Shown one piece after another: positions 3,946 through 58,631 of a stretch of DNA of 64,000 nucleotides. The stretch covers positions 62,001 to 126,000 of the forward strand of contig JAODUP010000951.1 of the NCBI GenBank assembly GCA_025642065.1, read 5' to 3'. This DNA comes from Paralvinella palmiformis (lineage: Eukaryota; Annelida; Polychaeta; Terebellida; Alvinellidae). The notes under the pieces are model-generated. The model was not told where the DNA came from, did not search any database, and saw only the letters and a program-made list of their open reading frames with translations. Positions within the stretch are counted from its first letter, which is position 1. Each line of letters opens with the position of its first letter. The position numbers were made by a program, and so were the translations under genes.

Positions 3946-5331
3946 TTGCCGCATTAACATGCTGGCGTATATCAGCAATTTCTTTAATATTATCGAGGTA
4001 AACTTCAGGATAGCTTATAACGATTCGTTTCCAATAAAACATTTATTAGTGCTATGATGCTACGATGATAATTAACTCCTATGATATTTGTCAAATCGTA
4101 AATAGTTAATAGGTTGCTTTATATATGAATTTCTATATTACATACATATCTACCACACCACGGTCGTGTTTTGATGGTATGCATTAAAATACCAAGATCT
4201 GTGAATAATTAATGAGGCTTAGTGCATTCCCTTGTCACTACCCGCGCTGGCGTACAAACATGCCAGCTTGTTTTAAACATTGATAGTTCAAAACTTAGGA
4301 AACGTCTTAGAAGTGAATGCAACATCCAAAGAACAGAGCACGAATAAAGCTTTTTTAAATATTGGTTTCATGTTTAAGTGAATGCGAAGGAAACGAATAT
4401 TTTATAAACGCATATAATTAATAAATGACAGTATTTTATGTCACATTACCTATATATTTTAAGAATAATATACTTTTATACAACTATACAAATCCAAACC
4501 CACATGTATTGGTTAATTTATATTGACAAACTAGTGCACATTTAGACAAAATACACTGTATATAAGTTACCGTTATTATGCTGAATATTTCAGTTATAAG
4601 GAGATATTAAAATAGAATTTGTTCCCCTTATAAATGACAACAATAATGACAAATGTCATCTACGGTCCTAATAATTATTTTCTGGTAATAATGACATCCG
4701 TTGAAACCTTCTCAGCTTCGACGAATTGATTCAGTATTCGGAAATATACATCCAGTCAATAATGGTTGATCACAACTTCAAACCAGGTATTTTCAATAAC
4801 ATGTCGCGGAGATCGTTCATGGTTGGTCTATTAGATGGTGTTTGCATCCAACATAAAGCCATCACATCAAACCTGAAATGTAATGGAGAGTTGATTTCGA
4901 TATTTTGTCACTAAATGGATACGTTTAGTAAAATAATGTTGCTAACTGAACAAGATAATGCTAAGACAACGATTCACCTTTTCTGGCAAATCAGTGTTTT
5001 CAAATGGGTATCAGCAATACTCACATTTCCGTAGTACATTTTGTTGGCTTAGATAGTCTCTGACCACGTAGTATTTCTAGCTTTACTTCATCTTTATTGA
5101 ATTCGCCAAATGGGTCTTTCCCTAGAGTCAGACAAATATATTATGCTTTCCTGATTTATGTAATGCAGAATGATATTACAGAATAAACTAGTTATTTTGC
5201 ACTAAGACAATGAACACATAAAATGGCTAATCATCCAATTGTTTAAGTTAGGTACGGAAAGTAATATAATTAATGCGTACGTTTAGGTTCATGGGATCAT
5301 CACTATTATATACATATTCAAATTTAAAGCT

Positions 5332-5335
<4 letters not shown>
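3946..5335. other. No gene recognised
   Basis: AT-rich, without long open frames or recognisable motifs on either strand. Confidence 0.5.

Positions 5336-5389
<54 letters not shown>
5336..5389. repeat. (AT)n microsatellite
   Basis: About 27 AT units in an otherwise unique AT-rich stretch. Confidence 0.95.
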
Positions 5390-5390
<1 letters not shown>

Positions 5391-5769
5391 AGTATATTAT
5401 ACTTTATTTACATCTTGGTCGTTTCGCCAGCATATTCATAATTCAAATATTGTCTCTTCAAGTAGTTCAGAACTACGAAAGATAAGTGCTAGAAATGTTC
5501 TAGCTGTTTTATAGTTGTTTTCTGATTGCTCTTCGATTTCTTTTCAATATGATTTTCTGATTGTTTTCCCAGTTGGTTTTCCTAGTTGGTTTTCTGTTGT
5601 CAGTAGTGTTCTAGTTGTTTTCATACTGAACCATGGAATATTGCCCCTGTTACATTCACATGAGAATTACTTTCCAATATTTATTCATTTTCAAAATTAG
5701 GTCTGTGCATAATAAATAGACCAGTATCACAGACTTGGTAATATGTAAAAAATTGGATATTCTCGCCCA

Positions 5770-6835
5770 CACTGAGACTAACAGTGTCATTTCTGCAATA
5801 GACTCGTGAATAAAGGTAAATTTGGCTTTCATAGGAACATGATATCCAACAACTCTGACAATCCTAGTCAATTCTGGAACTGTATAAATAAGATTTTCCA
5901 TAGAAAGGCTTCTGTTTCTCTGCCCAGTCCAGATTCAACTAATTCACTATGCAACTCTTTTCTAGATATGTCAAGGATAAGATCACCCAAATTAATGATT
6001 CTTACCCAGGAAGTGTTTCCAGTTGTAATAGTGATTTTCCATTTGTACAGTGTTTAAACCTTCGTCAATTACAGAAGTTGCTAAACTGATTTTATCATCC
6101 CCTAATTAGTCCTGTAAACTTGATCCATAAAATTCTGCTAAACTTTGGTCTTCATATAATAATTGGTCTAATTGCAAAGATAATAAATGTATCACTAAGC
6201 TCTGGGGTGTTGTCTTCTCATTTTAAACATGTCCAAGAAAACCCTCTTCTTAAATAACCATATTTGCCAGGCAATGACCTAAACAGCGATAGACCAAGCC
6301 TATTTCTAATCTATCTTTCATATCTAAAGTATTAGAAGAAATCGTATACAGTCAGCAGCTTTTGACACTATATATTATGCTATTCTTCTATATCGCTTCT
6401 CTGATTCATGTGGCATATTGGGCACAATACTCACTTGGATCCACCCATTCTAAATAAATAGGTTTCAATCAATATAAATAAGAAACTGTTTTTCAAAGGC
6501 AATTCCTTTGTTTTGCCGTATTCTCTAGCACTATGCTTTCTTATTCACAGCCACAAATTAGACCATCATTTATATGCTAATGACACCCAAGTATACACAC
6601 CTTTATCTCCAGCAGACACGGAATGTTCCCTTAAACAATTAGGTGCCCGCTTAGTGATATCGCAGGCTGGATGACAAACAATAGATTCAGGCTCAATGCC
6701 AACAAAACATATTTCTGTATTATTGGTACATCCAGACAACGCGGTAAATCTACTCGTTTATTCTCTATACCTATCCTTCACCGTAGCATCACACCGTCAC
6801 ACAATGTACGTAATATTGGTGTTACATTGCAGAAT
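5770..6835 (+). mobile_element. CR1-like LINE fragment lacking its 3' end
   Basis: Broken frames read NPSQFWNCINKIFHRKAS, then an SHFKHVQENPLL-type RT start, then CYANDTQVYTPLS (YADD with first Asp changed), IAGWMTNNRFRLNANKT and NVRNIGVT. Same family as the copy at the left edge. It stops inside RT with no tail, so its 3' part was deleted after insertion. It lies next to the last kinase exon of the receptor gene and may have helped destroy its 3' end. Confidence 0.8.
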
Positions 6836-6875
6836 TGTGTGTATTTTGAACGAACGAAATCCCTATAGGAAAAGT
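6830..6875 (-). other. Possible remnant of the next kinase exon
   Basis: After an ATTGTAG acceptor-like sequence the minus strand can read SQDTFPIGIS, which resembles the GxxPFPGxS stretch that follows WEVLSEG in RTKs. The frame is one base off from the preceding phase-1 donor, and LINE sequence starts at about 6830. It may be a broken exon or coincidence. Confidence 0.25.
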
Positions 6876-7063
6876 ATCTTGGCTCCTACAATTATTATGA
6901 TATTATTATTTTTTTTAATTTTCCTTTCTTTCAGAATTGTTAAATGTATCATTCTCACAAAAATAGACCGAGTGCCAACAGTCTACGTCAACAACTTATC
7001 TTGTCTTGTTTTATATACTACACGACAAGTGCAAGGTTTATATAAGGACATTATTTCAACTAC

Positions 7064-7172
7064 CTTCACTAAGAACTTCCCACATTAATACACCAAATGA
7101 CCAAACATCGGACTCAGGTATGTGGTTGAGTAGTATGGCTTCTGGTGATAACCATGGGATTGGTCTTGGTAT
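7064..7172 (-). CDS. Kinase-like exon 5: APE motif and alpha-F
   Basis: 109 bp, phase 0 to 1, TATTCTAG acceptor and GTAGTT donor. Encodes [16 protein letters not shown] then [17 protein letters not shown], near-perfect counterparts of the KWMAPEA and [13 protein letters not shown] blocks. The structural C-lobe core is thus conserved while catalysis is lost. It is the last exon I can place with confidence. Confidence 0.85.
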
Positions 7173-7306
7173 CTAGAATAATAAAATATATACGACTAGT
7201 AACATGGGACCACACTTGTGTCTTTTACATGAACACTGGTGTGTGCACGCACTCGAGTCCGAGCATGAGTAAACACACACACACACACACACACACAAAC
7301 GCACAT

Positions 7307-7351
<45 letters not shown>

Positions 7352-7432
7352 CACACACAGTATAGCTGATATATATATATATATATATATCCAATTCAGT
7401 TAACTGCTACACTACCATGTTATTTCATGCAA

Positions 7433-7467
<35 letters not shown>

Positions 7468-10008
7468 TGCGCGCGCGCGTGTGTGTGTGTGTATGTGCGT
7501 GCGTGTTTGCGCGCGTGTGAACGAGCGTTCTATTACTTTATTCGCTTCTTCCCATTGTTCTCGGCGCCGGACTATGCCAGAGCTAGCAAAACCTGAGAGT
7601 TTACAATTCTTGTCACCAGAGAGCAGCACATTTGAGGCACACAGACAGTAAAATAAACACGGGTTCTGGAGAGAAAAAAAAACCCTCAAGAATGAAAGTT
7701 TGTTTTATGAACTAAAACAGAATGTCAATCAAAGCAAAAATTAAGTTTCCGTTTTGTACCTGAAGACCGTAAACTGCTTCAACACCTTGAAATATCTGGC
7801 TGATAAACTGGATAGCATCAGAAGAAGGTGACCGCATCAAATCAGAAGAATATTCATTTGCCTTGACTCCGAGATATTGTTTAAGGTTTCCCAGTGGGGC
7901 AAATTCCATTACAAGTGACTCGTTTCCTGATGAAAACAAGAACATTACATTTCATTTTCCTTTCAATAATTTTATTTATCAAGGTTTGCATTGACTAACA
8001 TACACTGCTTAGTTGGCTTTTGTTTATATTTAATTGCAATACACAGGCAAACGGATAATTGTTTATTTTGCGATTTTGTATTACGTGTCGTTACATTTCT
8101 GTTCATGAATAGTCATATTCATGGATGGATATACTCATGAAAACGACATTAAAAAGCTTATGCATTGATGTTCTGTTGTTTTACCTGGCGCCGTTCCTAG
8201 ACAATTAATTATGTAATGATTTCTTTCTAATTTAACCAAACTTTGGGCTTGTCTAATAAGATACCGGATATATCCTTCATTTAGTCCTTGAACAAAGAAA
8301 GCAATATTCAGTCTAAGGTTTTTGTTGGGTGTCGCAATTCATATGATTGTAATGTTTACTGGTAAACGTGCAATCGTTTGCAATACCTTTATCTATTTTG
8401 ACGATAACGTCCTTTCGTGGTTCTGTTTCCAAAACTCTCCCTTTCCAAACCTGATAAACATTGCCATCACTGATAAGTGATATTAAAATGATTTGTTTTG
8501 GCAAGAGACGATTAAAGTTTGATTGCAAAATATCCGCGTCGGGTAGTCTGGGTAACATCTAAACAACGAAACAAAAATAACACGATTAATCGTTTATTAA
8601 AAGTATGTTTTATTTGATTGATATACTCACTTAATATCATATAATCGTGATACTCAATAATATAACTTTGAGCTGCAGTAAAAGTAGGTCGATTGTTTGT
8701 GATCCTCCATCAATAAATATCTAAATTAACTAGTTATTTAATTAATTATATGTAAGTGTATTTAAAGGTGTTATGTCAAATAGAGTGTAATAATTAATAC
8801 CAAAATGTGTAATTTAAACATCATTCCTTCGTATTGCCTGGATGATGCATTTGCATATCTTATGTGCAACTCACATTCAGATTAGCTTTCTTATCAACGT
8901 CTGTGTTCTCGCTTCTAATTATATCCATATTGCACTCGCCAATTAATGGCACATGACTGTTTGGATTTGTATCCACATTGTTTCTACCTAAGCGTTTCCT
9001 ATTGCTTTGCTTCTTGAGACATTCTAAAGTAAATACGAGATATACCGTAGTAAATCTAAATGTAGTGAAAATATTTATAGGTGTCAAACATTATGGGGTA
9101 ACAATTTCTCACTCAAGCTTGACAATGACACTTGTTTAACAGAAATATATATTATTATTATTTGCACCCGAATTGTACGAAGTGAACTATTTATATGGTG
9201 TCTCATTAGAATGATTGACTCAAAACTCAATTCCTATTCATTTCGAGTTATATCTTACGTATTTGTCTGCATTCTACTGCCATCAAGTCAAAGATAATAA
9301 TAAAAATAATTGCAGCAATAAATGCTGCCACCAAAGCTGTGGCGATAATCTCGTAAGGACCTGCCAAAGGAATTATAGATTTATTTCGTTATGTGTATTA
9401 CATTACTAAGATTACAAGCATTTTACTCTTAGTAATTTCAAAGGGTATTAATATTTGTTGTTGTTATCGGCTTGTATTACGGAGATAGGAAAATGAAAAC
9501 ACTTACATCCACACCTACTCACTGTCACTACGTACTGCTCTGGAGTCAGTAAGATGTCACCTTGATAGATCCAGAATGAGAAGGACCAGGCGCTAGCATT
9601 TGGCTGTATCAAATTCACATCCTTCTTAAAGTCATGTACTTCCTTCGCTATGGCACGCTTTCTTCTTTGGTGAGGAACCACAATATTTTCTGTAGTGCAA
9701 GTCGTTGTTCCGTAAACACAGTTTTGAGACTTTATATGTGTTATTGGTCCACTGATGAGGAAGTGAATCCGTGCTTTGTATCCAATAATCTTAACGGCAG
9801 GGTTCTTGTGAAACTTGCTTACGACTAAATTGCAATAAATATGTAATATATATATATATATATATATAATACTGTTTATCTCGTGAATAGATTTGAATCA
9901 TGTCATTTAAGGAATTTATGTTGTCCTTTCGTGATTTCATATGATTTTAGTTTATTTAGAATATACTTTTCATCATAATTTAATTGAAAATTAATTAATT
10001 AAATAAAA

Positions 10009-10056
<48 letters not shown>

Positions 10057-13000
10057 ATATAATATATAATCATGGTACTAGGTTGGAAACGGGAATACTG
10101 CGTGGTGTTTAAACATCTATGTTTATACCTAATTAACTAACCACCGACTCGCATTATATGAAGAGTTCTTAAATCTGCAATGGTACAAACCTGGCACAAA
10201 AACCCTAAATACACCAGTAGTAGTCCGGACGCCATTTGAATTAACCCCAACTACCTCCAGGTAATATTCTGTTTCAGGTTCTATGCCATCAGTAATGTCG
10301 TAATTCATATCCGATTTACCATCATGTCCTTTAAACTGAATATCGGTCTCCTCTCTAGCTACTCCCGTAGCTGGATTAGTAAATCTAATTGTATATGTTT
10401 GATTGAATTCCGATATCAAATGTACTCGAATTCTGAAAGGTGAGATGTCAGTTATGTCATAATCAAAAGTTCTTTGATTGTCAGTCTCGTTAACGACTTG
10501 CTTCTCAATCAACTGAAACATGATGTCTTCTCCTTTCCATCCACCATAGCTATTTCTTGCCCATAAATAGTAGTTTCCGAAGTGATTGGCAGTAATTATA
10601 TCTATAGAGAGAACAGCGATATTCGCAAATACTGTAAGCTTAACATTCTCTGGCTGTACTCTCTTAGCATCCACAAATTCGCCATAAGAGAATTTCCAGT
10701 GCCACTGATCGGCTGTAGGCAGTGGTCTACCTGTGACCCAAACCTTGAATTGTCCAACAGCTCCAACATTGCTTCGGTAAACTTTGGTAGCAGGCTGGAG
10801 TTTTAGCCATCTTGCTGGACCTGCATATGTTATACAATAGATATACAAATAATGAAAGTAACAACCTGGTGGACAACGCATGTTGTTATTATATTTTCAA
10901 TATATTTGAAATTCGTACAGATAATATAGCATTTAAATGCCATCGAAGTTTGTCTGTCTCATTTGCAGCAGTTATTGCCCATAAATAGCTACAGCTTTTT
11001 TTAAAAGTTAGCGCTAATATTATAATAATATTTTTAAGTATAGAGAAAATCAGATAAATTAGTCTAAAAACCTGACATTGAATTAATACCGAAACTGAAT
11101 TTATAAATATATACTTCTTTCCTATCAGCACTGGATTGATTTCCCAATAAAAAGCTCTTTTTTAATATTAAATATAGTCGTGAATAAAAGCATGAAGTAA
11201 ATGTTGAATGCATGTTTATTCAATTACTTTTAAAGTAGACAAAACCTAAAGTACTGAACTTGTATTGCTTTAATAGATATTGATAACAAAATAAATTATA
11301 ACCTTTGTCTCTAATCCAGCATACCCATTCAATGCCCATGGAAAGTGTATATAATAACATATCATACTCTTTATAACAGAAACTAACCAAATACGGTGAT
11401 GTTTGTCTCGATAGTGGAAGGCGATCCATTATCAGCCGTGCATTGATATGTTCCAGAATGAAATACACTCAACCTAGATAGTGTCAATGAGCAGTGGGTC
11501 CGGTTTCTTTGACTACAGCCAAGATCGGATGGATCTGATGCTGTTATATTAATCCATTTGAAGGATAAGGGATTTGTCTTACTCTCCACAATACATATGA
11601 GGGTCACCACTGAATCTTCTACCAGCTGCCCGCCAGGTGATAGTATAATGCTGAGCTTAGAAGAATCTAAAACCACTTAATATAAATAAGACACATGCAT
11701 TCAACCAACAAAATATTTAAACTTTTCAAAATGAGGAAGGAAGGTATAAGGAAAATATTAAAATAATAAGATACGACAGTAACATACCTCTACACTTAAT
11801 TAAAAGAAATCAGAATAACTGAATTAGTTCAGCCATACCGTTACTACTCAAATTGAATTCCAAATTTCCTTCTTTCCAGCCACCATATTTATTACTTGTC
11901 CACACAAAATAACTTCCATAGTGATTCTTAGTAACATAGCTAATGTTCAAAATGGCCATGCTCCCAGAAACTGATAGATATACATATTTTGGATTTGTCA
12001 CCATTGCACCACTTGTACCACTTGGCCTAAATTTCCAGTGCCACTGATCTAGTCTTGGTAACGGACGACCTATGATCCAAAGCTGAAAGTATGTGTAATT
12101 ACTAATGCTGACATAACGAACGCATTCAGCTGGTTCTAGCTTCAACAACCTCGCTGGTCCTATTGATGAAATAAAAGAAAACATGTTTAGAACATAAATA
12201 AAACAGATAATAATATAAAAGAGGTTCTCTTTAAATCTTAACAAAGAATAAAGTATCGTTCAACTATTAGTGAAAGACACTAACCAAATACGGTAATGTT
12301 TCTCTTAATATTAGCTGGGGCTCCAACTGCACCATTGTTAGCCAGACATTCGTAAGTTCCAGTAATGAAATATACTCAGATTAGACAGTATTAATGAGCA
12401 GTGAGTCTGATTTTTCTTTGTACAGCCAAGATCTACTTCATCTAAAATTGTAATGTTCATCCACCGGAAGAGAAATGGGTGTGGTTCTCCTTCCGCAATA
12501 CATGTTAGCGTTAACGTGGAACCTTCCACGACCACACCTTCAGGCAACTGCTTAACAGACAGTTTCGGAGCATCTTAATCAAAAGAAAAGATAAATATAT
12601 CTTTCTATCTATTTCAACCCTGTTTGTAGGCTAGCAAATTAATTTTGAACCAGTGGCTTATATCAAGAGTAAGCTGAAATCCTTTAAGTTTTAGATAACA
12701 TAATGAAAACAGTTGAATAAATTAAATATTTTACAACTAAAATGTTATGATTATTACTTGGTGAAGCCAAACTGAATCCCAAATCATCTTTTTTCCAGCC
12801 TCCATACGCATTATCTGTCCACACATAATAAGTGCCGTAATGATTCCGGGTAACGTTTGCTATTTTCAGAATGGCCAGCCCATCATTTATCACCATATGT
12901 ACATTCGGTGGATGTGACAACACAGAATGAGATATGTTACTAGGTGAAAACGTCCAATGCCACTCATCTAGTCTAGGAAAGGGTCGAGCTTTGATCGAAA

Positions 13001-16000
13001 CCTTAAAGATTGCGCTTCCTCCAATACCAATTTGAAGAAACCGATTAGCTGGTTCTAGCTTATTCCATCGGGCTGGTCCTATTGTTGAAATTAAACAAAC
13101 ATCTTTAGGACATATAAATGGATATGGTTCTCTTTAAATCTTTAAAGATAAAGTATCGTTCAACTATTATGAAGACACTAACCAAATACGGTAATGTTTC
13201 TCTTAATATTAACTGGGGCTCCAACTGCACCATTGTTAGCCAGACATTCGTAAGTTCCAGTATGAAATATACCAGTAGCATATTAAGAGAATGATCTGTT
13301 TTTCTTTGTACAGCCAAGATCTACTTCATCTAAAATTGTAATGTTCATCCACCGGAAGAGAAATGGGTGTGGTTCTCCTTCCGCAATACATGTTAGCGTT
13401 AACGTGGAACCTTCCACGACCACACCTTCAGGAAACTGCTTAACATACAGTTTCGGAGCATCTTAATCAAAAGAAAAGATAAACATATCTTCTATCTATT
13501 TCAACCCTGTTTGTAGGCTAGCAAATTAATTTTGAACCAGTGGCTTATATCAAGAGTAAGCTGAAATCCTTTAAGTTTTAGATAACATAATGAAAACAGT
13601 TGAATAAATTAAATATTTTACAACTAAAATGTTATGATTATTACTTGGTGAAGCCAAACTGAATCCCAAATCATCTTTTTTCCAGCCTCCATACGCATTA
13701 TCTGTCCACACATAATAAGTGCCGTAATGATTCCGGGTAACGTTTGCTATTTTAGAATGGCCAGCCCATCATTTATCACCATATGTACGTTCGGTGGATG
13801 TGACAACACAAATGAGATATGTTACTAGGTGAAAACGTCCAATGCCACTCATCTAGTCTAGGAAAGGGTCGGCTTTGATCGAACCTTAAGATTCGCTTCC
13901 TCAATACCAATTTAAGAAACCGATTAGCTGGTTCTACTTATTCCATGGCTGGTCTATTGTTGAAATTAAACAACATCTTTAGGACATATATAAAATAGAT
14001 GATAATATAAAAGAGGTTCTCTTTAAACTTTAAAGAATAAAGTATCGTCAACTTATTAAAGACACTAACCAAATCGTAATGTTTCTCTTAATATTAACTG
14101 GGCTCCAACTGCACCATTGTTGCGAGCTAATTAATTTGAACATGTTAACAAGATTAAGGAAATCCTTTAGTTTTATAACACAAACACTTATAAATTTAAT
14201 TTACAGAAAAAATGGTTGTTTCCTTAAGCCAAACTGATCCCATACTTTCAACCTCCATACCATTATCGTCAACCAAAAAGTCGGAATATAAAGAAAACGT
14301 TATATTTTATATTCACCCTTTTATAGTAGTATTAATATTTGAACCAGGTTATTAAGATAAGCAAACCTGTGAAAACGTCCAATGCCACTCATCTAGTCTA
14401 GGAAAGGGTCGAGCTTTGATCGAAACCTTAAAGATTGCGCTTCCTCCAATACCAATTTGAAGAAACCGATTAGCTGGTTCTAGCTTATTCCATCGGGCTG
14501 GTCCTATTGTTGAAATTAAACAAACATCTTTAGGACATATATAAAATAGATGATAATATAAAAGAGGTTCTCTTTAAATCTTAATAAAGAATAAAGTATC
14601 GTTCAACTATTATTGAAAGTCACTAACCAAATACGGTAATGTTTCTCTTAATATTAACTGGGGCTCCAACTGCACCATTGTTAGCCAGACATTCGTAAGT
14701 TCCAGTATGAAATATACTCAGATTAGACAGTATTAATGAGCAATGAGTCTGATTTTTCTTTGTACAGCCAAGATCTACTTCATCTAAAATTGTAATGTTC
14801 ATCCACCGGAAGAGAAATGGGTGTGGTTCTCCTTCCGCGATACATTTTAGCGTTAATGTAAAACATTCCATGACAACTCCATCAGGCAACTGCTTAACAT
14901 ACAGTTTCGGAGCATCTTAATAAAAAACAAAAACATGAATAATCATTCTATCTATTTTAACCCTGTTTATAGGCTAGCATAATAATGTTCAACCAGTGGC
15001 GTATTTAAAGATTAAGCTGAAATCCTGTAAGTGTTAGACAAAATAATCAAAACAGCCGAATAAATTAAATGTTTATAAATAATTGTTATGATTATTACTT
15101 GTTGAAGCCAAACTGAATCCCAAATCATCTTTTTTCCAGCCTCCATACGCATTATCTGTCCACACATAATAAGTGCCGTAATGATTCCGGGTAACGTTTG
15201 TTATGTTTAGAATGGCCAGCCCATCATTTATCACCATATGTACATCCGGTGGATGTGTCAACACAGAATTAGATATGTTACTAGGTAAAAACGTCCAATG
15301 CCACTCATCTGGTCTGGGAAAGGGTCGAGCTATGATCGAAGCCTTGAAGATTGCGCTTCCTCCAATACCAATTTGAAGAAACCGATTAGCTGGTTCTAAC
15401 TTATTCCATCGGGCAGGTCCTATTGTTGAAATTAAACAAACATCTTTAGGACATATATAAAATAGATGTGAATATATAAGAGGTTCTCTTTAAATCTTAA
15501 CAAAGAAAAAAGTATCGTTCTACTATTATTTAAAGACACTAACCAAATACCGTAATGTTTCTCTTAATATTAACTGGGGCTCCAACTGCACCATTGTTAG
15601 CCAGACATTCGTAAGTTCCAGTATGAAATATACTCAGATTGGACAGTATTAATGAGCACTGAGTTTGGTTTTTCTTTGTACAGCCAAGAACTACTTCATC
15701 GAAATTTGTAATGTTCATCCACCGGAAGAGAAATGGGTGTGGTTCTCCCTCCGCGATACATGTTAGCGTTAACGTGGAACCTTCCACTACAACTCCATCA
15801 GGCAACTGCTTAACAGACAGTTTCGGAGCATCTTAATCAAAAGAAAACACGAATAATCATTCTATCTATTTTAACCCTGTGTATAGGCTAGTATACTCCT
15901 TTTGAACCAGTGGCTTATTTCAAGATTAAGCTGAAATCCTGTAAGTGTTAGATAAAATAATCAAAACAGCTGATTAAAAAAAACATATAAATAAATGTTA

Positions 16001-19000
16001 TGATTATTACTTGTTGAAGCCAAACTGAATCTCAAATCATCTTTCTTCCAGCCTCCATACGCATTATCGGTCCACACATAATAAGTGCCGTAATGAATCC
16101 GGGTAACGTTTGTTATGTTTAGAATGGCCAGCCCATCATTTATCACCATATGTACATCCGGTGGATGTGTCAACACAGAATGAGATATGTTACTAGGTGA
16201 AAACGTCCAATGCCACTCATCTGGTCTGGGAAAGGGTCGAGCTATGATCGAAGCCTTAAAGATTGCGCTTCCTCCAATACCAATTTGAAGAAACCGATTA
16301 GCTGGTTCTAACTTATTCCATCGGGCTGGTCCTATTGTTGAAATTAAACAAACATCTTTAGGACATATATAAAATAGATGTAATATAAAAGAGGTTCTCT
16401 TTAAATCTTAACAAAGAAAAAAGTATCGTTCAACTATTATTAAAGTCACTAACCAAATACGGTAATGTTTCTCTTAATATTAACTGGGGCTCCAACTGCA
16501 CCATTGTTAGCCAGACATTCGTAAGTTCCAGTATGAAATATACTCAGATTGGACAGTATTAATGAGCACTGAGTTTGGTTTTTCTTTGTACAGCCAAGAA
16601 CTACTTCATCGAAATTTGTAATGTTCATCCACCGGAAGAGAAATGGGTGTGGTTCTCCTCCGCGATACATGTTAGCGTTAACGTGGAACCTTCCACTACA
16701 ACTCCATCAGGCAACTGCTTAACAGACAGTTTCGGAGCATCTTAATCAAAAGAAAACATGAATAATCATTCTATCTATTTTAACCCTGTTTAGGCTAGAA
16801 ATATTTTGAACCAGTGGCTTATTTCAAGATTAAGCCGAAATCCTGTAAGTGTTAGATAAAATAATCAAAACAGCTGAATTTAATTAAAAACATATAAATA
16901 ATTGTTATGATTATTACTTGTTGAAGCCAAACTGAATCCCAAATCATCTTTTTTCCAGCCTCCATACGCATTATCAGTCCACACATAATAAGTGCCGTAA
17001 TGATTCCGGGTAACTTTTGTTATCTTTAGAATGGCCAGCCCAACATTTATCACCATATGTACGTCCGGTTGATGTGTCAACACATAATGAGATATGTTAC
17101 TAGGTGAAAATGTCCAATGCCACTCATCTGGTCTGGGAAAGGGTCGAGCTATGATCGAAGCCTTAAAGACTGCGCTTCCTCCAATACCAATTTGAAGAAA
17201 CCGATTAGCTGGTTCTAACTATTCCATCGGGCTGGTCCTATTGTTGAAATTAAACAAACATCTTTAGGACATATATAAAATAGATGATAATATAAAAGAG
17301 GTTCTCTTTAAATCTTAACAAAGAAAAAGTATCGTTCAACTATTATTGGAAGTCACTAACCAAATACGGTAATGTTTCTCTTAATATTAACTGGGGCTCC
17401 AACTGCACCATTGTTAGCCAGACATTCGTAGTTCCAGTATGAAATATACTCAGATTAGACAGTATTAATGAGCACTGAGTTTGGTTTTTCTTTGTACAGC
17501 CAAGACTACTTCTCGAAATTTGTAATGTTCATCCACCGGAAGAAAATGGGTGTGGTTCTCCATCCGCGATACATGTTAGCGTTAACGTGGAACCTTCCAC
17601 TACAACCCTCAGGCAACTGCTTAACAGACAGTTTCGGAGCATCTTAATCAAAAGAAAACATGAATAATCATTCTATCTATTTTAACCCTGTTTATAGGCT
17701 AGCATAATAATATTCAACCAGTGGCTTATTTCAAGATTAAGCAGAAATCCTGTAATTGTTAGATAAAATAATCAAAACAACTGAATAAATTAAACATATA
17801 AATAATTGTTATGATTATTACTTGTTGAAGCCAAACTGAATCCCAAATCATCTTTTTTCCAGCCTCCATACGCATTATCAGTCCACACATAATAAGTGCC
17901 GTAATGATTCCGGGTAACTTTTGTTATCTTTAGAATGGCCAGCCCAACATTTATCACCATATGTACATCCGGTGGATGTGTCAACACAGAATGAGATATG
18001 TTACTAGGTGAAAACGTCCAATGCCACTCATCTGGTCTGGGAAAGGGTCGAGCTATGATCGAAGCCTTAAAGATTGCGCTTCCTCCAATACCAATTTGAA
18101 GAAACCGATTAGCTGGTTCTAACTTATTCCATCGGGCTGGTCCTATTGTTGAAATTAAACAAACATCTTTAGGACATATATAAAATAGATGTAATATAAA
18201 AGAGGTTCTCTTTAAATCTTAACAAAGAAAAAAGTATCGTTCAACTATTATTGGAAGTCACTAACCAAATACGGTAATGTTTCTCTTAATATTAACTGGG
18301 GCTCCAACTGCACCATTGTTAGCCAGACATTCGTAAGTTCCAGTATGAAATATACTCAGATTAGACAGTATTAATGAGCACTGAGTTTGGTTTTTCTTTG
18401 TACAGCCAAGATCTACTTCATCGAAATTTGTAATGTTCATCCACCGGAAGAGAAATGGGTGTGGTTCTCCTCCGCGATACATGTTAGCGTTAACGTGGAA
18501 CCTTCCACTACAACTCCATCAGGCAACTGCTTAACAGACAGTTTCGGAGCATCTTAATCAAAAGAAAACATGAATAATCATTCTATCTATTTTAACCCTG
18601 TTTATAGGCTAGCATAATAATTTTGAACCAGTGGCTTATTTCAAGATTAAGCCGAAATCCTGTAAGTGTTAGATAAAATAATCAAAACAGCTGATTTAAA
18701 TTAAAAAAAAACATATAAATAATTGTTATGATTATTACTTGTTGAAGCCAAAATGAATCCCAAATCATCTTTTTTCCAGCCTCCATACGCATTATCAGTC
18801 CACACATAATAAGTGCCGTAATGATTCCGGGTAACTTTTGTTATCTTTAGAATGGCCAGCCCAACATTTATCACCATATGTACGTCCGGTTGATGTGTCA
18901 ACACATAATGAGATATGTTACTAGGTGAAAATGTCCAATGCCACTCATCTGGTCTCGGAAAGGGTCGAGCTATGATCGAAGCCTTAAAGACTGCGCTTCC

Positions 19001-22000
19001 TCCAATACCAATTTGAAGAAACCGATTAGCTGGTTCTAGCTTATTCCATCGGGCAGGTCCTATTGTTGAAATTAAACAAACATCTTTAGGACATATTTAA
19101 AAAAGATGATAATATAAAAGAGATTCTCTTTAAATATTAGCATAGAATAAAGTATCATTCAACTATTATTGGAAGTCACTAACCAAATACGGTAATGTTC
19201 CTCTTAATATTAACTGGGGTTCCAATAGCACTATTTTGAGCCAGGCATTCGTAAGTTCCAGTATGAAATATTCTCAAAATAAACAGTATTAATGAGCACT
19301 GAGTCTGTTTTTTCTTTGTACAGCCAAGATCTACTTCGTCCAAAATTGCAATATTCATCCACCGGAAGAGAAATGGGTGTGGTTCTCCTTTCCGCGATAC
19401 ATTTTAGCGTTAATGTAAAACATTCCATGACAACTCCACCAGGCAACTGCTTAACATACAGTTTCGGAGCATCTTAATAAAAAACAAAAACATGAATAAT
19501 CATTCTATCTATTTTAACCCTGTTTATAGGCTTGCATAATATTGTTCAACCAGTGGCGTATTTCAAGATTTAGCCGAAATCCTGTAAGTGTTAGACAAAA
19601 TAATCAAAACAGCTGAATAAATAAATTGTTTTATAAATAATTGTTATTATTATTACTTGTTGAAGCCAAACTGAATCCCAAATCATCTTTTTTCCAGCCT
19701 CCATACGCATTATCTGTCCACACATAATAAGTGCCGTAATGATTCCGGGTAACGTTTGTTATGTTTAGAATGGCCAGCCCATCATTTATCACCATATGTA
19801 CATCCGGTGGATGTGTCAACACAGAATTAGATGTGTTACTAGGTGAAAATGTCCAATGCCACTCATCTGGTCTGGGAAATGGTCGAGCTATGATCGAAGC
19901 CTTGAAGATTGCGATTCCTCCAATACCAATTTGAAGAAACCGATTAGCTGGTTCTAGCTTATTCCATCGGGCTGGTCCTATTGTTGAAATTAAACAAACA
20001 TCTTTAGGACATATATAAAATAGATGTGAATATATAAGAGGTTCTCTTTAAATCTTAGCAAAGAAAAAAGTATCGTTCAACTATTATTAGAAGTCACTAA
20101 CCAAATACGGTAATGTTTCTCTTAATATTAACTGGGGCTCCAACTGCACCATTGTTAGCCAGACATTCGTACGTTCCAGTATGAAATATACTCAGATTAG
20201 ACAGTATTAATGAGCACTGAGTTTGGCTTTTCTTTGTACAGCCAAGATCTACTTCATCGAAATTTGTAATGTTCATCCACCGGAAGAGAAATGGGTGTGG
20301 TTCTCCATCCGCGATACATGTTAGCGTTAACGTGGAACCTTCCACTACAACTCCACCAGGCAACTGATTAACTGACAGTTTCGGAGCATCTTAATCAAAA
20401 GAAAACATGAATAATCATTCTATCTATTTTAACCCTGTTTACAGGCTAGCATAATAATTTTGAACCAGTGGCTTACTTCAAGATTAAGCCGAAATCCTGT
20501 AAGTGTTAGATAAAATAATCGAAACAGCTGAATTAAATAAAAAAATCAAATAAATAATTGTTATGATTATTACTTGTTGAAGCCAAACTGAATCCCAAAT
20601 CATCTTTTTTCCAGCCTCCATACGCATTATGTGTCCACACATAATAAGTGCCGTAATGATTCCGGGTAACTTTTGTTATGTTTAGAATGGCCAGCCCAAC
20701 ATTTATCACCATATGTACATCCGGTGGATGTGTCAACACATAATGAGATATGTTACTAGGTGAAAATGTCCAATGCCACTCATCTGGTCTCGGAAAGGGT
20801 CGAGCTATGATCGAAGCCTTAAAGACTGCGCTTCCTCCAATACCAATTTGAAGAAACCGATTAGCTGGTTCTAGCTTATTCCATCGGGCTGGTCCTATTG
20901 TTGAAATTAAACAAACATCTTTAGGACATATATAAAATAGATGATAATATAAAAGAGGTTCTCTTTAAATCTTAACAAAGAATAAAGTATCGTTCAACTA
21001 TTATTGGAAGTCACTAACCAAATACGGTAATGTTTCTCTTAATATTAACTGGGGCTCCAACTGCACCATTGTTAGCCAGACATTCGTACGTTCCAGTATG
21101 AAATATACTCAGATTAGACAGTATTAATGAGCACTGAGTTTGGTTTTTCTTTGTACAGCCAAGATCTACTTCTTCGAAATTTGTAATGTTCATCCAGCGG
21201 AAGAAAAATGGGTGTGGTTCTCCATCCGCGATACATGTTAGCGTTAACGTGGAACCTTCCACTACAACTCCATCAGGCAACTGCTTAACAGACAGTTTCG
21301 GAGCATCTTAATCAAAAGAAAACATGAATAATTATTCTATATATATTAAGCTTATTAATATGCTAGCATAATAATTTTGAACCAGTGGCTAATATCAAGA
21401 GTTAGCTGAAATCCTGTAAGCTTAGATAAAATAATCAAAAGAGCTGAAGAAATTAAAAAATATATAAATAATTGTTATGATTATTACTTGTTGAAGCCAA
21501 ACTGAATCCCAAATCATCTTTTTTCCAGCCTCCATACGCATTATCTGTCCACACATAATAAGTGCCGTAATGATTCCGGGTAACGTTTGTTATGTTTAGA
21601 ATGGCCAGCCCATCATTTATCACCATATGTACATCCGGTGGATGTGTCAACACAGAATGAGATATGTTACTAGGTGAAAACGTCCAATGCCACTCATCTG
21701 GTCTGGGAAAGGGTCGAGCTATGATCGCAACCTTAAAGATTGCGCTTCCTCCAATACCAATTTGAAGAAACCGATTAGCTGGTTCTAACTTATTCCATCG
21801 GGCTGGTCCTATTGTTGAAATTAAACAAACATCTTTAGGACATATATAAAATAGATGATAATATAAAAGAGGTTCTCTTTAAATCTTAACAAAGAATAAA
21901 GTATCGTTCAACTATTATTGGAAGACACTAACCAAATACGGTAATGTTTCTCTTAATATTAACTGGGGCTCCAACTGCACCATTGTTAGCCAGACATTCG

Positions 22001-25000
22001 TAAGCTCCAGTATGAAATATACTCAGATTAGACAGTATTAATGAGCAGTGAGTCTGGTTTTTCTTTGTACAGCCAAGATCTACTTCATCGAAATTTGTAA
22101 TGTTCATCCACCGGAAGAGAAATGGGTGTGGTTCTCCATCCGCGATACATGTTAGCGTTAACGTTGAACCTTCCACTACATTTCCATCAGGCAACTGATT
22201 AACAGACAGTTTCGGAGCATCTTAATCAAAAGAAAACATGAATAATTATTCTATATATATTAAGCTTATTAATATGCTAGCATAATAATTTTGAACCAGT
22301 GGCTAATATCAAGAGTAAGCTGAAATCCTGTAAGTGTTAGATAAAATAATCAAAACAGCTGAATAAATTAATAAATATATAAATAATTGTTATGATTATT
22401 ACTTGTTGAAGCCAAACTGAATCCCAAATCATCTTTTTTCCAGCCTCCATACGCATTATCTGTCCACACATAATAAATGCCGTAATGATTCCGGGTAACG
22501 TTTGTTATGTTTAGAATGGCCAGCCCATCATTTATCACCATATGTACATCCGGTGGATGTGTCAACACAGAATGAGATATGTTACTAGGTAAAAACGTCC
22601 AATGCCACTCATCTGGTCTGGGAAAGGGTCGAGCTATGATCGAAACCTTAAAGATTGCGCTTCCTCCAATACCAATTTGAAGAAACCGATTAGCTGGTTC
22701 TAACTTATTCCATCGGGCTGGTCCTATTGTTGAAATTAAATAAATATCTTTAGGACATATATAAAATAGATGATAATATAAAAGAGGTTCTCTTTAAATC
22801 TTAACAAAGAAAAAAGTATCGTTCAACTATTATTGAAAGACACTAACCAAATACGGTAATGTTTCTCTTAACCTTAACTGGTGATCGAACTGCGCCATTG
22901 TTAACCACACATTCGTATGTCCCAGAATGAAATATACTCAGATTAGACAGTATTAATGAGCAGTGAGTTTGATTTTTCTTTGTACAGCCTAGATTATGTG
23001 ATCTAGTTACTGATATGTTCATCCATGTGAAAGAGACTGGTTGTGGATTTCCCTCAGCTACGCAACTCAGTGTCAGCTTGAAACCTTCCAGAAGAACCCC
23101 ACTGGGATAGCTTTTGACAATCACTTTCTGAGTAACTAAGTAGAAAAACATATTATTAGTTGAATATTTGTTTTTCCTGTACCATCATAATGATTTTAAG
23201 ATGATGACATTTTAAAGCGGTAATTTATATTTATATAAAGCGTTATATGAACATTAAATATAATCTGGAAAATTTGTACAGATTATGAAATAATTAAATT
23301 ATTTTACTCTTACATGCTGAAGTCAAACTGAAGTTTAGACTATCTTCCTTCCAACCACCATATGCGTTATTTGCCCAAACAAAATAACCTCCGTAATGAT
23401 TTTGAGTCACTTTTGTTATGTCTAGAATGGCCACATCTTTTGATGCACGTAGATGCACATTTGCTGGATTTGTTGTGTTCCTATAATAAGTGTTGCTTGG
23501 GGAAAACCTCCAATGCCACTGATCTGGTCTTGGAAATGGTCGAGCTATGATCCAAATTTTAAATGTTGCATCGCCTCCAATGTCGATTTTGCGAACACGA
23601 TTAGCTGGTTCTAACTTTATCCATCGGGTTGGTCCTTTGATTTGATAAGAAAAGTTCGTTCAGAATAAAAACATAAATTACTTTCTTTCGAAAACTGTTT
23701 AAATTTCAGAAATAGAATTTCACACTTTAAATTAAAAAGTTGATGTAAATAACACATTCATATAGAGCTCAACCCTAATTAATATTTGACAAAACAAGCT
23801 ACTCTTAGAGTACAGGTTACCAAGCATACACTCACCAAATACTCTGATAGTTTTGTTGCGTTTAACAGGAGAGCCACCAACCCCGTTAAAAGCCTCACAC
23901 TGGTAAGTACCCGAATGAAGTATATCTATGTTAGACAGTCTGAGTGAACATTCAGTTTTTGTAGAATTACTGCAGGGAAAATGATGGCGAGCAAGCCCGG
24001 TAACATTATACCAACCAATATAATGTGGATATGGTCTACTATCAACAGTGCATGTCAGTGTTACATCGACACCCTGGATAAGATCACCCCTAGGCGTCTG
24101 TTTAATATTCAGTTTAGGACGGTCTAAAAAGACAATGAAATAAATTATCAAACAGGTAGATCTATCAAATATGTATTATATATATAAAGAGTTTTGAACC
24201 ACTAAATCCCTAATGTGAACAGTATTAATATTTAAATATTGTCTATTTGAAATAAGTATTTAAAGGATCTGTCATTGCCTAGCATAAACAAGTAATAGTA
24301 CGGACAGAAAGGGTTCATCTTTCACTTGTGCATGCACATTTCGCATTACAAAAATCAGTTTAAGTCAGTTTCAAGTTTAAACGCAGTTATTTCATTCTTG
24401 TGACTCTTGTGAACATCATAAAATAGTCAAAGTCATTCATGTAAGAGAAAGAGTTTCATAGCCAAAGCTAACACTTGTAAAGAAAACGACTGCTAACATA
24501 GCGTGTCCTGTTGATGGGTGAGTGAGCGAGTCCGACAGTGAGTGAATGAGTGAATGAGTGAGTCGGTCAATCAGCAAATCGGTCAATCAGCAAATTGGTC
24601 CATCAGCAATTAAGTCAGCATGTCAATCAGCAAATCAACCAATCAGCAAATAAGTCAATCAGCAAACCAATCGGTCATTCAATCAACAAATCAATATGTC
24701 GGTCAGTAGCTGTATTTCCCCATTGTAAATTACACTGGTAATGAGGGAAAGAAGTTTAGCGCGTCTTAAAGATCGAAGGAGATATTCCTGGACAGAAAAA
24801 ATTAAATAGGATTTTTACAAAGGCAATTTGTTGGTGATGGATATTATAGTTTTATCACCATCTGCTAGTTGAGCCAATTAGGTGTGCATAGATATGTTCA
24901 GTTGTTGTCTTTTGTATGCTATATTGTAGCAGTCGGAACTTATGATTTCAGATTACGGGTAAATAAAATAGTGAATAAACCATTCCCTTGGCCAGGTACT

Positions 25001-25398: not shown

Positions 25399-27367
25399 AT
25401 ATATATATATATATTGTTTAAATTGATCGGTATTCGAATATTTTAGTAATTTTGGTCCACTTAATCAAACGAATGAAAACCTCTGAGAATGATGACAAAT
25501 AGCAATGTTTTTTTCTATATAGAGTATGATGAAATCGGCATAACTGAGCACAAAAACGATAGTAGAGTCGCACATCGTGGTTTATGACGTCATAAGGCAG
25601 ATAGTAATCTACGTTTCTGCAAACTAAACATTAACAAAATCAGTCAACATAGTTCCAGCAATGCATTATACATCTCTAAGTACTTACAGGCAACCTTTAC
25701 CATGGCTCTAAAGGATTCGGTGTACGGTGAGCCAGTTTCGTGAGCTATGCATTCAAAGAGTAAGTAGTGATTGAATGACTCCACATGTGTTAAGGTGATC
25801 GTCTCGTTAGCTGGCCCACTGATTGAATATCTGCTATCGTTCGGTTTAAATCTTTTGTCTACAATCCAGTGAAACGTTATCTTTGGCTTTACATTATACG
25901 GGATGTTGACAGGCATTATAGATGTAGAGTTGCCAACGCATGTCATAACAAAATGTTCATGGGAACCTTCTGATATTAGCTTTGGCTCGTCTGGTGGTCC
26001 TAGTGAAAATATAAGCAAATTTAGCTTGTCAGTAGAAGTCGAAGGCAATTCTATTTCGATCAAGTATTGTGTATGTTTATTATTAGTAAATAACTAAGAC
26101 ATATTTAGTTAAAACATAACACAGCTCATTGTAATCATTGCTTTCAGTAAATATATATAAATACCTTCTTGACATGTGCATAACAAGTTATGTAGAGAGA
26201 AGCATTTGCTTTTACAAATAGTATTCCTTATTGCGAAATTAGCTTATAAATACTTTCTAAATTGTTTGACAGGAATTAGCACATAATCTAAACAAGTGGC
26301 AAAACAGTACAATTGGGCCAGAGAAATGTGTTTTCATAAAATTATGTTTCTACATAACGAGTTTTCTAAGTTAAATAAGACCCCCCAATGTAATTGTACT
26401 TCCCATAAGAATATATTAGCATATACATTCTTCACGGGAAAATAACATATACGTCTCAATAACTTAATAAATCGTTCCGTTTTAGTAGATTCGTTAGATA
26501 AATTCATTAATTGTTAAAGGGCGACATCTGCGAGCTTCGGCTCAGCTAAATAAGCAGAGCACTGTGGCATGCTGTATTTACAAATAAATGCACAAATATT
26601 GAAACTGATAAACCGATTCTGTTTACGATATAATTTCGAGCCAATGTTGTAGGCCATTATAGTTCGGTAAAATTTCGCCACATTACAGTATTCAGCAATA
26701 AAGTGCGAAGCAGGGGGCAACACACTAATCAGCAATTTTATATTAAGGCACGATAATTCTAGAGGGTTAACACAGTATTTAGATCGTATCATTATGAATT
26801 ATAGATTATGGTAGTCAAGACTACATTGAAATAAAGTAAATACTTACTATAAATTACTATCCAGGCCTGTCTATTTATCACATCATCTTTGCCATCCAGG
26901 ACAATCTTAAGCATATAGTTATGCATGGCATCATCAACTTGGAGATTACGTATAATCATGTCCACTGACCTGGATCCAAACAGTACAATTAGGCTAACTT
27001 TGTTTATACCGTAATCTTGACCGTAAGTTGTCTGAATAGTTCCTGAAGACGTAACCTTCCAGCCACAGACAACCTTTGGTGGATTTGACTCAAAGTAAAT
27101 AGTACCTCCCCATCTTTCGTTGACAGGCTCGTTTAGCACCCATCCTAATTTGACCGTATTATGTAGTGCGGTACCGACAACGTTTGGCCAGGCTATAAAT
27201 TTCAAACCTGCAATGGATATAATTGAAAACCACGCGAATAAGTGAATTAATAATAAGACTAGCTTAAAAATAAAAACTTATGTTATTATATATCAATCTT
27301 CAAAGGTGTTTCATACGTGTGGATGAATGTGTGTGTGTGTGTGTGTATTTGTATTGTTTATTGTTTT

Positions 27368-31064: not shown

Positions 31065-33260
31065 TTGCAGTTAATCGTGAAAACGAAATTGTGGTTATAT
31101 ATCACCCCTTCGTGTGATAGTCAACAAAGTAAGAACAAAGAAGCGATTTATTTTTACCGTGTCCTGAGAGCAATTCGGTCGACTCCGAAGCGGAGAAATT
31201 CAGCGCAGAAACAACAACAAAGGAATTCATTAATCGACATCAAGAAACAGAACCTGCGAATTCCGAAAAAAACATCAAACTCCGGAAAATCGTAAAATGT
31301 CGATCCACGACATGGAACTGGACTCTGAAAAGTTTATAGCACTTTATACCAAACCGCGCTTAGACGGGAGGGGACTAATTATATATTGAAGGAGTTGATC
31401 GAGCCATTGTTGGCTAATACAAGAAAGAAACAACGCAAAAGATTAACAAGCTTCAATATACCATAGATCTGCGATTAAACAAGATCTTACAGCTTGGGGA
31501 ACAAATGGATAAATATGATCAAAGAACAGACGAAATATAGCCTTAATTTATGGAATTAAGGCAGATAAGGACGAAGTTGTCAACCTTGCCAACATAACCA
31601 ACTTCATGGAAAATGTGAGAAAGCTAGAGTTTAAGAGAGAAAACATCGTAAGTGCTCACAAAGTGGACAAATCAGGCAATGTAATGTTGGTGTCATTTGA
31701 TTCCTCAAACACTAAAGATAGGATCTTCAAGGTAAAGACAAAACTCAGATATGATGCCAAGATGGTCTACATCAACGACTACCTGGCAAGTAGAAGAGTT
31801 AAACGTTTCAAGAAAGCAAAAGAATTAAGGAAAATGAAGAAAATCGAAGCAACTTGGGACTTTTAATGGCAACATAATGGTCAAGTCAGTCCATGATGAG
31901 AAACCACAACAGATTCAAAATGAATCAGACTTGGACAAGATCCCGAAAGTCAAAATAAACATGTCACAAATCGCCGCTAGAGGATCTAAACAAAATTAAT
32001 ATCTATCAAGTGTTCCAAAGACCCTCTGTGCATATTGAAATATAATCCATTTTACCTATTGCAATTTAAATTAGTACACTATCACATTATTATTTAATAA
32101 TATTGATTTTATAATGTACCAGTCACTTTATTTGTAATAATGTATCCTTAATTGTGGAGTCTGATTGGAAATTGGTGGATTGCAGGACCTCTTCAAAAAC
32201 GGGAACACTGTTGGTTAAGGGACAACATTAAAACTGGTTGATTAATTACCTTACAAACAGACAGCAATATGTTCAAATTAGAAAGAACATTTTTGCAACA
32301 AGGATTGCGATGTCTCACAGGGATCAATTTTAGGGCCTCTCTGTATGTAAACGACATTGCTCAGTGTACCAAAAGCCATATATCATTTGCAGATGACACC
32401 ACATTGTCTGTATGTGATTCTGAGCCCAGATTATTGTTAGAAAAGGCAAATATTGAAGTCAACAAATTATTTAACTGGTTTTATGCAAACAGACTGTCAC
32501 TTAATCCCCAAAAGACCAAATTCATAATAATTAAGCCATCAAAGGCTAAATTTGAGTTTAGTGGTCTAAATCTTTTAATAAATGGAACACCATTGGAGAG
32601 AATTGGTAAAGAATACAAGGAGGAAAGCACACAGTTTTTGGGTGTACTATTTGATGAATCACTGACATGGAAACATCATATAAATCACATTAATAAAACA
32701 ATATCAAAATCACTTTTCGCAATTAAGCAAGTAAGAAATATGTTTCAGCCATATATTAACTATGGCATATTGGCATGGGGAAATGCAAATCAATCTATTC
32801 TTAAACGTACTGTTCTATTGCAAAAAACGTGCAATTAGAATCATATGTAAAGTACAATGTAACAGCCATACTTAACTACTATTTAAAAAACGTAAGATTT
32901 TGAAAATTAAAGACCAATTTGAATATGAATTAATAATTTTTATGAATAAATATAAACAGAACAAATTACCTTCATCTTTTGATAAGAATTTTAGTTATAA
33001 TCATGAGATCCAGAATAGACTCACCACTAGGCTATCACACCAGTTATATATTCAAAGATGTGATTCCACATTTGCTAGAAAAATACCCCTATTTGAAATT
33101 CCCGAAATATGGAACAAATGGAGTTATTGTACTCATAATTATACTTTCACTTACCAATCTAAGCTGAAAAGGCAGCTTAAAGGGGAAATGTTGTCTCATT
33201 GCACAAGTAGTGTACGATGTGTAAACACTCATTGCAAAGACTGTCTGAATTGATTAAATC
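31065..33260 (+). mobile_element. LINE with large internal deletion
   Basis: ORF1-like sequence comes first (31065-31990, frameshifted; includes VMLVSFDSSNTKDRIFKVKT and INDYLASRRVKRFKKAKE). After a ~230-bp linker the element resumes in the RT palm (DVSQGSILGPL, then ISFADDTTLSVCD with intact FADD, and FLGVLFDESLTWKHHIN) and continues through the thumb to a C-terminal CVNTHCKDCLN stop at 33253. Endonuclease and the N-terminal half of RT are absent. Frames show few lesions, so it is a fairly young non-autonomous derivative of a Jockey/CR1-clade element. Confidence 0.8.
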
Positions 33261-37449: not shown

Positions 37450-38375
37450 AACCACTATAGCTATCTTTCCAAACTGTCAAAATACAGTAGTATACAACTA
37501 ATAATGATTGTGGTGTTGCTGTCTATGTTAAAGAATCCAATGCCCAACAGCAATCTGCAAAAATCGTTGGTACGCTGTGATGAAATATTATCTCGACTCA
37601 AAAATACTAAAAAAAATATTATTACAACCGATCAGAATATGGATCTATTAAATATTGAAAGTTATATACATACTGCAGAATTACTTAACAATATGTTTAC
37701 TGTTTCTATCATACCAACAATAAACAAACCTACCCGTATCACACACTCTACTGCTACATTAATTGACAATATATATGTGAAATTTAATGATTTCCATACT
37801 ACAGTAAAATCTACCTATATTTTGTTTCATTTCCTATAATAAGCCTTACAGTCGAACAAACCAGAAACCACTAATATTCGAAAAAGAGATACAAATGATA
37901 ACACTATAAACCTTATAAATAGTGCTATTCAACATACTAATTGGGACTACTTAGACAATCTAACCATGAATGAATCTTTTGAAAGTGTTATTGAAATTTT
38001 AAAAGACACGCTCCACAAATATGCACCATTCAAGGAAATAACAATTATACATAAAAGTATCATCTGGAATCCATATTTATATAGCAAATGCATAAACAAA
38101 TCCAAGACTGATATAACATATAAAAGATGCATCAAAAAGATAGCTAAGGGGACAAATATTTAATGACGTCAAACACAATATAAGGGAAACATGGAAGATA
38201 ATAAACGCAACAATATGCAAATTAAATGATAAAACTAGTACACCAAAAACCTTTAAAATAGACAACAAAAATATCTCGGATCCTAATATAATAACAGATA
38301 AATTTTGCGAATTCTTTACCAATGTTGGTACCAAATATGCCAATAATAAACCTTTACATACATTAACCTAGATCT
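37450..38375 (+). mobile_element. LINE fragment: endonuclease C-terminus to start of RT
   Basis: Broken frames read IIPTINKPTRITHSTATLID then NIYVK (the conserved end of AP endonuclease in Jockey/CR1-type elements). Linker sequence follows (NWDYLDNLTMNESFESVIEI, then KYAPFKEITI) and KFCEFFTNVGTKYA, typical just before the RT domain. It ends near 38375 with RT missing. Different family from the copies at 8-930 and 5770-6835. Confidence 0.8.
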
Positions 38376-46599: not shown

Positions 46600-46740
46600 C
46601 ATGTTTAGTTCAATGGTGACTTGCTACATACATATCAAACTATTTTGACACCACAGTTTACATTCAACAGTAATTTTCTGTAGTCCAAAAGAAACCTGTA
46701 TATAAAACATTTCGACACCTCAGATGCTGACCTCAATATG
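46600..46740 (+). repeat. Interspersed repeat R1, partial copy
   Basis: GTTCAATGGTGACTTGCTAC, CAAACTATTTTGACACC, AATTTTCTGTAGTCCAAAAG and CTCAGATGCTGACCTCA match the middle of R1. Confidence 0.75.
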
Positions 46741-48530: not shown

Positions 48531-48534
48531 CAGT

Positions 48535-58560: not shown

Positions 58561-58570
58561 CTATGTACCC

Positions 58571-58631
58571 TACAAACACACAAACACACACAACACACAC
58601 ACAAACACACACAAACACACACAAACAAACA

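Follow-up and report, generated by a model that had tools for sequence, protein, structure and literature searches.

A predicted receptor pseudokinase with a tandem array of Ig-type exon pairs in the annelid Paralvinella palmiformis

The locus and its gene model

We analysed a window of 64,000 nucleotides from the annelid Paralvinella palmiformis (GenBank assembly GCA_025642065.1, 594 Mb in 2597 contigs) that covered bases 62001-126000 of contig JAODUP010000951.1, here called C2543. Its minus strand appeared to carry one gene for a single-pass receptor pseudokinase, the ectodomain of which was encoded by a long tandem array of exon pairs for immunoglobulin (Ig)-type domains. GT-AG sites and exon phases were consistent from an ATG at 29259 to a stop codon at 4770. 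The exon order was leader, D1, D2, the array of alternating B and A exons, a last A domain fused to a first FN3-like domain (FN3a), a second FN3-like domain, the transmembrane (TM) exon, a juxtamembrane exon and seven kinase exons (Table 1). The D1-D2, FN3-like, TM and kinase exons were all open and had usable splice sites. When the first five intact pairs were joined with the last pair and the array units between them were omitted, the spliced frame was free of stops over 2,048 amino acids.

The alternative that the array exons came from several separate genes was rejected on splice and phase continuity, with no kinase match and no in-frame hydrophobic stretch within the array. Namely, a tblastn search of the entire window with the cytoplasmic part as query (E <= 1) gave matches confined to 4773-9027, outside the array. 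When hydropathy was scanned along the minus strand from 24123 to 10191, 11 stretches exceeded 2.0, none of them in the frame of the array exons, and the strongest reached 2.65 versus 3.14 for the TM exon. Accordingly, an earlier sequence-only reading of this window was upheld in proposing a single gene from signal peptide to kinase-fold end and an array that no TM or kinase exons interrupt. The same reading had ended the gene at 7064, which was too early since two further kinase exons (K6 and K7) followed. It had also described an FN3-TM-kinase end and proposed a search of the translated exons against Pfam. The TM segment and the kinase fold were borne out, but the FN3 part was matched weakly: the first FN3-like domain, scanned together with the last A domain, reached E 0.11, and the two FN3-like domains scanned together gave no fn3 match at E <= 0.1. 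No Pfam family was matched by D1 or D2. Furin processing at the RRKR motif was rejected as a family feature because the motif was not conserved in the aligned paralogues.

Table 1. Features of the receptor gene and of the adjoining sequence, in window coordinates
Feature	Position	Strand	Basis
Leader exon with start codon, signal-peptide-like	29187..29259	-	ATG at 29259, hydrophobic leader, donor GTAAGA, phase 1
Exon D1, N-terminal domain	26848..27207	-	AG/GTAAGT sites; 46% match in paralogue at C2543:231.7-232.0k
Exon D2, second N-terminal domain	25688..25999	-	Splice sites; homologues in 5/8 mapped paralogue stretches
Array of 15 B-A exon pairs, last A fused to FN3-like domain	10191..24123	-	Self-comparison, exon reading, splice sites, alignments
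Homogenised core of 915-bp units	12034..23025	-	Self-comparison, unit alignment
Deletion-rich stretch in which a unit junction is broken; probably a weak point of the assembly	13740..14369	-	Alignment to unit consensus
Last A domain fused to FN3a, one exon	10191..10820	-	Pfam fn3 E 0.11
Second FN3-like domain exon, contains RRKR	9507..9824	-	Homologous in paralogues
Transmembrane exon	9259..9360	-	Hydrophobic segment, mean hydropathy 3.14; TM in frame
Juxtamembrane exon	8875..9023	-	Exon reading
Pseudokinase exon K1, Gly-loop degenerate, VAIK Lys kept	8387..8558	-	
Pseudokinase exon K2, alpha-C, Gln for Glu	8185..8286	-	
Pseudokinase exon K3	7760..7926	-	
Pseudokinase exon K4, LFYCLCASN at HRD loop, GFA for DFG	7537..7665	-	
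Pseudokinase exon K5	7064..7172	-	
Pseudokinase exon K6, C-lobe, absent from the sequence-only reading	5025..5121	-	
Pseudokinase exon K7 and stop at 4770, absent from the sequence-only reading	4770..4872	-	
Relic B-A pair, degenerate and carrying several stops, not part of the receptor gene	1713-1214, in stretch 1713-1008	-	

The array and its variation among paralogues

Self-comparison of the window gave a longest unit-shifted alignment of 7,745 columns at 94.8% identity (15285-22994 versus 14369-22079), together with further alignments shifted by multiples of the array unit. When 12 units were cut at the B-exon starts and aligned, the composite unit 14915-13462 being omitted, 11 measured 888-920 bp, with a consensus of 915 bp, as against 988 bp for the first. 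Units U3-U10 were mutually 91-98% identical; U2 shared 85-90% and U12 88-92% with these, and the outermost U1 and U13 showed 57-77% identity to the remaining units. Each unit comprised a 288-bp B exon and a 321-bp A exon, with consensus introns of about 124 and 182 bp. Both exons were multiples of three and in phase 1-1, therefore gain, loss or skipping of a unit keeps the reading frame. The B exon was clearly recognised by Pfam as encoding an Ig domain (Ig_3, E 8.7e-13), in which the core residues C24, W37 and C75 and an extra Cys pair were invariant in all eight aligned intact copies. The A exon was Ig-like and stayed under the Pfam curated cut-off (Ig_3, E 3.2e-4; 21.6 versus 30 bits), and all 12 of its aligned copies lacked a Cys pair.

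Broken copies included, the array had 15 exons of each type, A and B; of these 30, 20 were intact and 10 broken. The broken B exons were those at 19472, 18552, 17642, 16740, 13461 and 12573 plus a fragment at 14121; the broken A exons were those at 17237 and 13954 plus a truncated copy at 14503. Against the unit consensus, 14503-13462 had 84 deletions, 8 insertions and 51 substitutions, where the first figure was inflated by the poorly aligning portion 14369-14122; the overlapping stretch 13954-13079 had 28 deletions and 3 insertions. Deletions also outnumbered insertions in 18142-17238 (8 versus 0) and 17237-16332 (9 versus 1), and U7-U9 carried 18 small deletions and no insertions. The counts were 1 versus 1 in 22723-21809 and 3 versus 2, 2 versus 2, 3 versus 1 and 2 versus 6 in other units. 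These deletion-biased changes affected exons and introns alike and seemed to resemble unpolished long-read sequence, while some array units may have decayed genuinely. Because of the ten broken exons and the deletion-rich alignment of 14503-13462, the pair number of 15 is insecure. The 915-bp unit claimed by the sequence-only reading was confirmed. Its figure of about 15 tandem pairs agreed with the exon count and the unit-shifted alignments as assembled but inherits this insecurity, and its figure of about 30 Ig domains holds as assembled, but for Pfam 15 of these, the A domains, are no more than Ig-like, and the sequence inside the array is visibly poorly assembled.

The number of pairs differed among paralogues. 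A search with the A domain gave at least 63 matches on 25 contigs, some with stops. Four genes (on C1051, C1116, C322 and C1909) had a single pair between D2 and FN3a; the first was read through to the kinase and the other three were not read to a kinase. One pair was also seen on C986, where the upstream end was lost at the contig start. Further along the contig of the window, C2543:224.0-227.4 kb contained four B and three A exons below a D2 and D1, and five more A matches at C2543:189.7-213.9 kb were located upstream of, and on the same strand as, a kinase at 215.9-218.3 kb. A second array was found on C2233, with seven A domains, of which one was interrupted by a frame change, successive 993-bp units that were 96-97% identical, and kinase exons at 227.9-230.4 kb.

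In a tree of A domains, which included the last A exon of the window twice (win_10510 and win_last) and omitted the A domain of C1051, the homogeneous window copies grouped with a fragment from C2250 at 100/99. A branch at 96/93 parted the C2233 copies and four other single-A genes from the homogeneous window copies, and five of the six C2233 copies grouped at 95/91. Since the C2233 and window copies separate in this tree, array amplification probably happened more than once, with the tree of B copies as a reservation. Among intact copies, the ratio of non-synonymous to synonymous differences (pN/pS) was 0.52 for A (9 copies) and 0.49 for B (5 copies); intron divergence was 11.5% after A and 4.4% after B. 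The exon-copy pN/pS of about 0.5 would favour a homogenised array acting as a stalk or in avidity over one of diversified sites.

Two other observations concerned array sequence elsewhere in the genome. The C2250 fragment (C2250:140722-141870) was an isolated piece that spanned about 1.2 units and shared about 91% identity with the window array, and no other family domains were found within the 50 kb compared around it. The 2.4-kb stretches C2543:225370-227777 and 232595-235000 were 99.9% identical, the second being cut by the end of the sequence compared; either an Ig-pair region was duplicated in tandem very recently, or the duplicate arose in assembly.

The kinase domain and its relatives

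The kinase fold was complete, matching PF07714 (PK_Tyr_Ser-Thr) with E 3.6e-45 over profile positions 5-257 of 258. In the alignment with FGFR2, where the catalytic loop read CIHRDLAARNVL, HRD was replaced by FYC, DFG by GFA and the alpha-C Glu by Gln, the last at what we take to be the equivalent position in FGFR numbering. The VAIK Lys and the catalytic-loop Asn were retained. The best matches in the PDB were active receptor tyrosine kinases (RTKs), namely an EGFR construct (E 1.2e-39) and FGFR2 (E 3.5e-32), and FGFRs made up 59 of the 60 matches listed (the best 60 of 1182). The predicted protein had the single pass and the PK_Tyr fold of a catalytic RTK but lacked the HRD and DFG Asp and the alpha-C Glu.

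The catalytic loop was then compared at 24 loci: the window, four paralogues with kinase exons, and 19 of 20 short stretches around further matches. The HRD position read FYC in 18 of these exons and FYS in six (LFY[C/S]), and GFA stood at the DFG position in all 24. The four paralogues retained the VAIK Lys along with the altered loop, and the alpha-C residue was Gln in both paralogues where that exon was read. Because both catalytic Asp were absent in all 24 loop exons and the alpha-C Glu was lost in the window, the gene is best assigned, by its predicted protein, to a receptor-pseudokinase family rather than to ordinary RTKs. In this respect the sequence-only reading, which had assumed a receptor tyrosine kinase, was not supported in the catalytic sense.

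Kinase-exon dN/dS between the window and the paralogues was 0.39 (L012), 0.23 (L027), 0.39 (L028) and 0.23 (L030), with dS partly saturated, and the loop exon of the closest paralogue had one non-synonymous and six synonymous differences in 42 codons. As judged from these codon changes, the four comparisons show kinase exons under constraint. Genome-wide, the kinase search listed at least 101 matches, with 134 of 193 candidates scored and more distant kinases at 27-31% identity included; six groups of matches were located on C2543 at 10.5-218 kb. The C-terminal 719 amino acids found no protein homologue at E <= 1e-3 among 7390 candidates in a database apparently without animal proteins, since a kinase of RTK length should have matched. 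The K4 exon of L012 (C2543:216.86-216.99k) was 94% identical to the window K4 at the DNA level and the other kinase exons were far more diverged (dS 0.25 versus 0.81), which may reflect local gene conversion.

Around the receptor gene, the relic pair probably belongs to the next family member downstream, for which an A-like domain with FN3a (C2543:60.4-60.8k) and a kinase (30.1-32.0k) were found. On the plus strand, frames at 31519-33253 and 37450-38163 resembled broken pieces of a non-LTR retrotransposon, as judged by the look of their translations only. Self-comparison also revealed a dispersed repeat family at 43144-43967, 46608-49789 and 57624-58582, with copies about 75-95% identical and some inverted. 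The window had no match in the phage collection and none in Rfam at the gathering score.

Interpretation and comparison with known systems

We consider it slightly more likely than not that the locus carries one gene for a single-pass receptor pseudokinase, in which the Ig-pair array serves as a stalk for reach and valency and the pseudokinase as a platform, the family being found only in this genome. The D1-D2 tip, the repeated pairs or both would recognise either a ligand or, on another cell, the same receptor, and binding would cluster the receptors. The near-identical pairs would then form an extendable stalk giving reach and multivalency rather than diversified binding sites, and the array would expand and contract through unequal exchange. 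The pseudokinase may act as an assembly platform or as an allosteric partner for other signalling proteins; such a scaffold or allosteric role is favoured because the dead loop is conserved.

Several points weighed against this model. The gene is a prediction from genomic sequence, and the ten broken array exons were frameshifted, truncated or fragmentary as assembled, mostly by small indels. The FN3 assignment is weakly supported, and the AlphaFold2 (AF2) model of the last A and FN3a exon was poor (mean predicted local distance difference test score, pLDDT, of 53) and was unused as fold evidence. The B copies were not cleanly grouped by gene in their tree. Amino-acid positions varied among the array copies (23 among nine A and 17 among five B copies), so the array may have some recognition role. 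The 24 loop exons, picked by their likeness to the window kinase, gave 16 distinct peptides over 28 residues, so that some of the loci may be alleles or recent copies. Moreover, the ligand, the homophilic binding and the signalling partner are parts of the model that we infer.

A different explanation was that the family serves invertebrate immunity or self/non-self recognition as a set of receptors; the number and sequence of Ig pairs would vary between genes and between individuals, and the pseudokinase would dock signalling adaptors. The 16 loop peptides at 24 loci, the six kinase groups on C2543 and the differing pair numbers of the paralogues were in its favour; however, the array copies were homogenised and, at a pN/pS of about 0.5, not diversifying overall, and we regard it as possible but unlikely. 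That the array size was mostly a product of assembly, with collapsed or mis-joined long reads inflating or scrambling fewer real pairs, would account for the deletion-rich stretch 14369-13740, the one-sided deletions of U7-U9 and the broken exons. On the other hand, the other units were distinct copies because substitutions set them apart by about 2-5%, their small indels were few and roughly balanced, and most of their exons were intact; a second array with units of another length existed on a different contig. We regard this explanation as improbable.

The broken exons and the relic pair with stops close by would also fit a decaying gene, with the locus a pseudogene whose frameshifts and loss of catalytic residues are genuine. 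We set this aside as very improbable on the open spliced frame, from D1-D2 through the kinase, and on the kinase-exon constraint (dN/dS 0.23-0.39 versus four paralogues), and the altered loop was found in every family member read. An ordinary active RTK with a long ectodomain agreed with the best PDB matches and with the retained VAIK Lys and loop Asn. Nevertheless, it was rejected as hardly credible, since HRD, DFG and the alpha-C Glu were lost in the window, both Asp were altered in 24 of 24 loop exons, and the alpha-C Gln recurred in the two paralogues mentioned above.

Beyond the preferred model of a stalk and platform receptor, a bolder version can be proposed, which we hold to be doubtful. 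Here the kinase would have been made permanently into a non-catalytic scaffold with a rebuilt, strongly conserved loop (LFYCLCASN...GFA), and the Ig-pair number would act as a dial that sets length and valency, evolves fast without disturbing the frame and varies between genes, and probably individuals, for self/non-self or cell-cell recognition, in a family so far seen only in this genome. If the array holds, it is far above the two to seven Ig domains that Ig-type RTKs usually carry. With its phase 1-1 exons and its amplification in more than one paralogue, the B-A unit would offer a natural system for studying receptor length change, and a dead kinase with an altered active site conserved across a sizeable gene family makes the role of a pseudokinase loop after catalysis testable. 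No published description of this family was found in the library searched, which was partial and so gives no proof that it is unpublished.

Several known receptors resemble parts of this gene. Sialoadhesin (Siglec-1) and similar proteins use a many-Ig stalk to lift a distal binding domain off the membrane; the long stalk is alike, whereas they have fewer domains, belong to different families and are without a kinase-like domain. The FGFR/VEGFR/PDGFR-type RTKs, with three to seven Ig domains and active kinases, share the Ig ectodomain and the kinase fold, but the present gene has a dead kinase and an Ig pair that is multiplied at the genomic level. TAM and Tie receptors have the same order of Ig and then FN3-like domains before the TM segment and kinase fold, with few Ig domains and an active kinase.

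Another close parallel was the CCK4/PTK7 family, which includes Drosophila Otk and Hydra Lemon. CCK4 has an Ig ectodomain, and in PTK7 seven Ig domains directly precede the TM segment with no FN3. A passage of PMC8662651 names CCK4 as a pseudokinase family. Both systems combine an Ig ectodomain, a single TM segment and a tyrosine-kinase-like pseudokinase. In contrast to CCK4/PTK7, the gene described here carried 15 B-A pairs, or about 30 Ig-type domains, with an FN3-like region after them, had FYC for HRD and GFA for DFG in the loop, and belonged to a family with many loci in one genome. The candidate undescribed system suggested by the sequence-only reading stands in part: Ig-domain receptor pseudokinases are already known in kind, and the novelty lies in the family, in its altered catalytic loop and in the array size.

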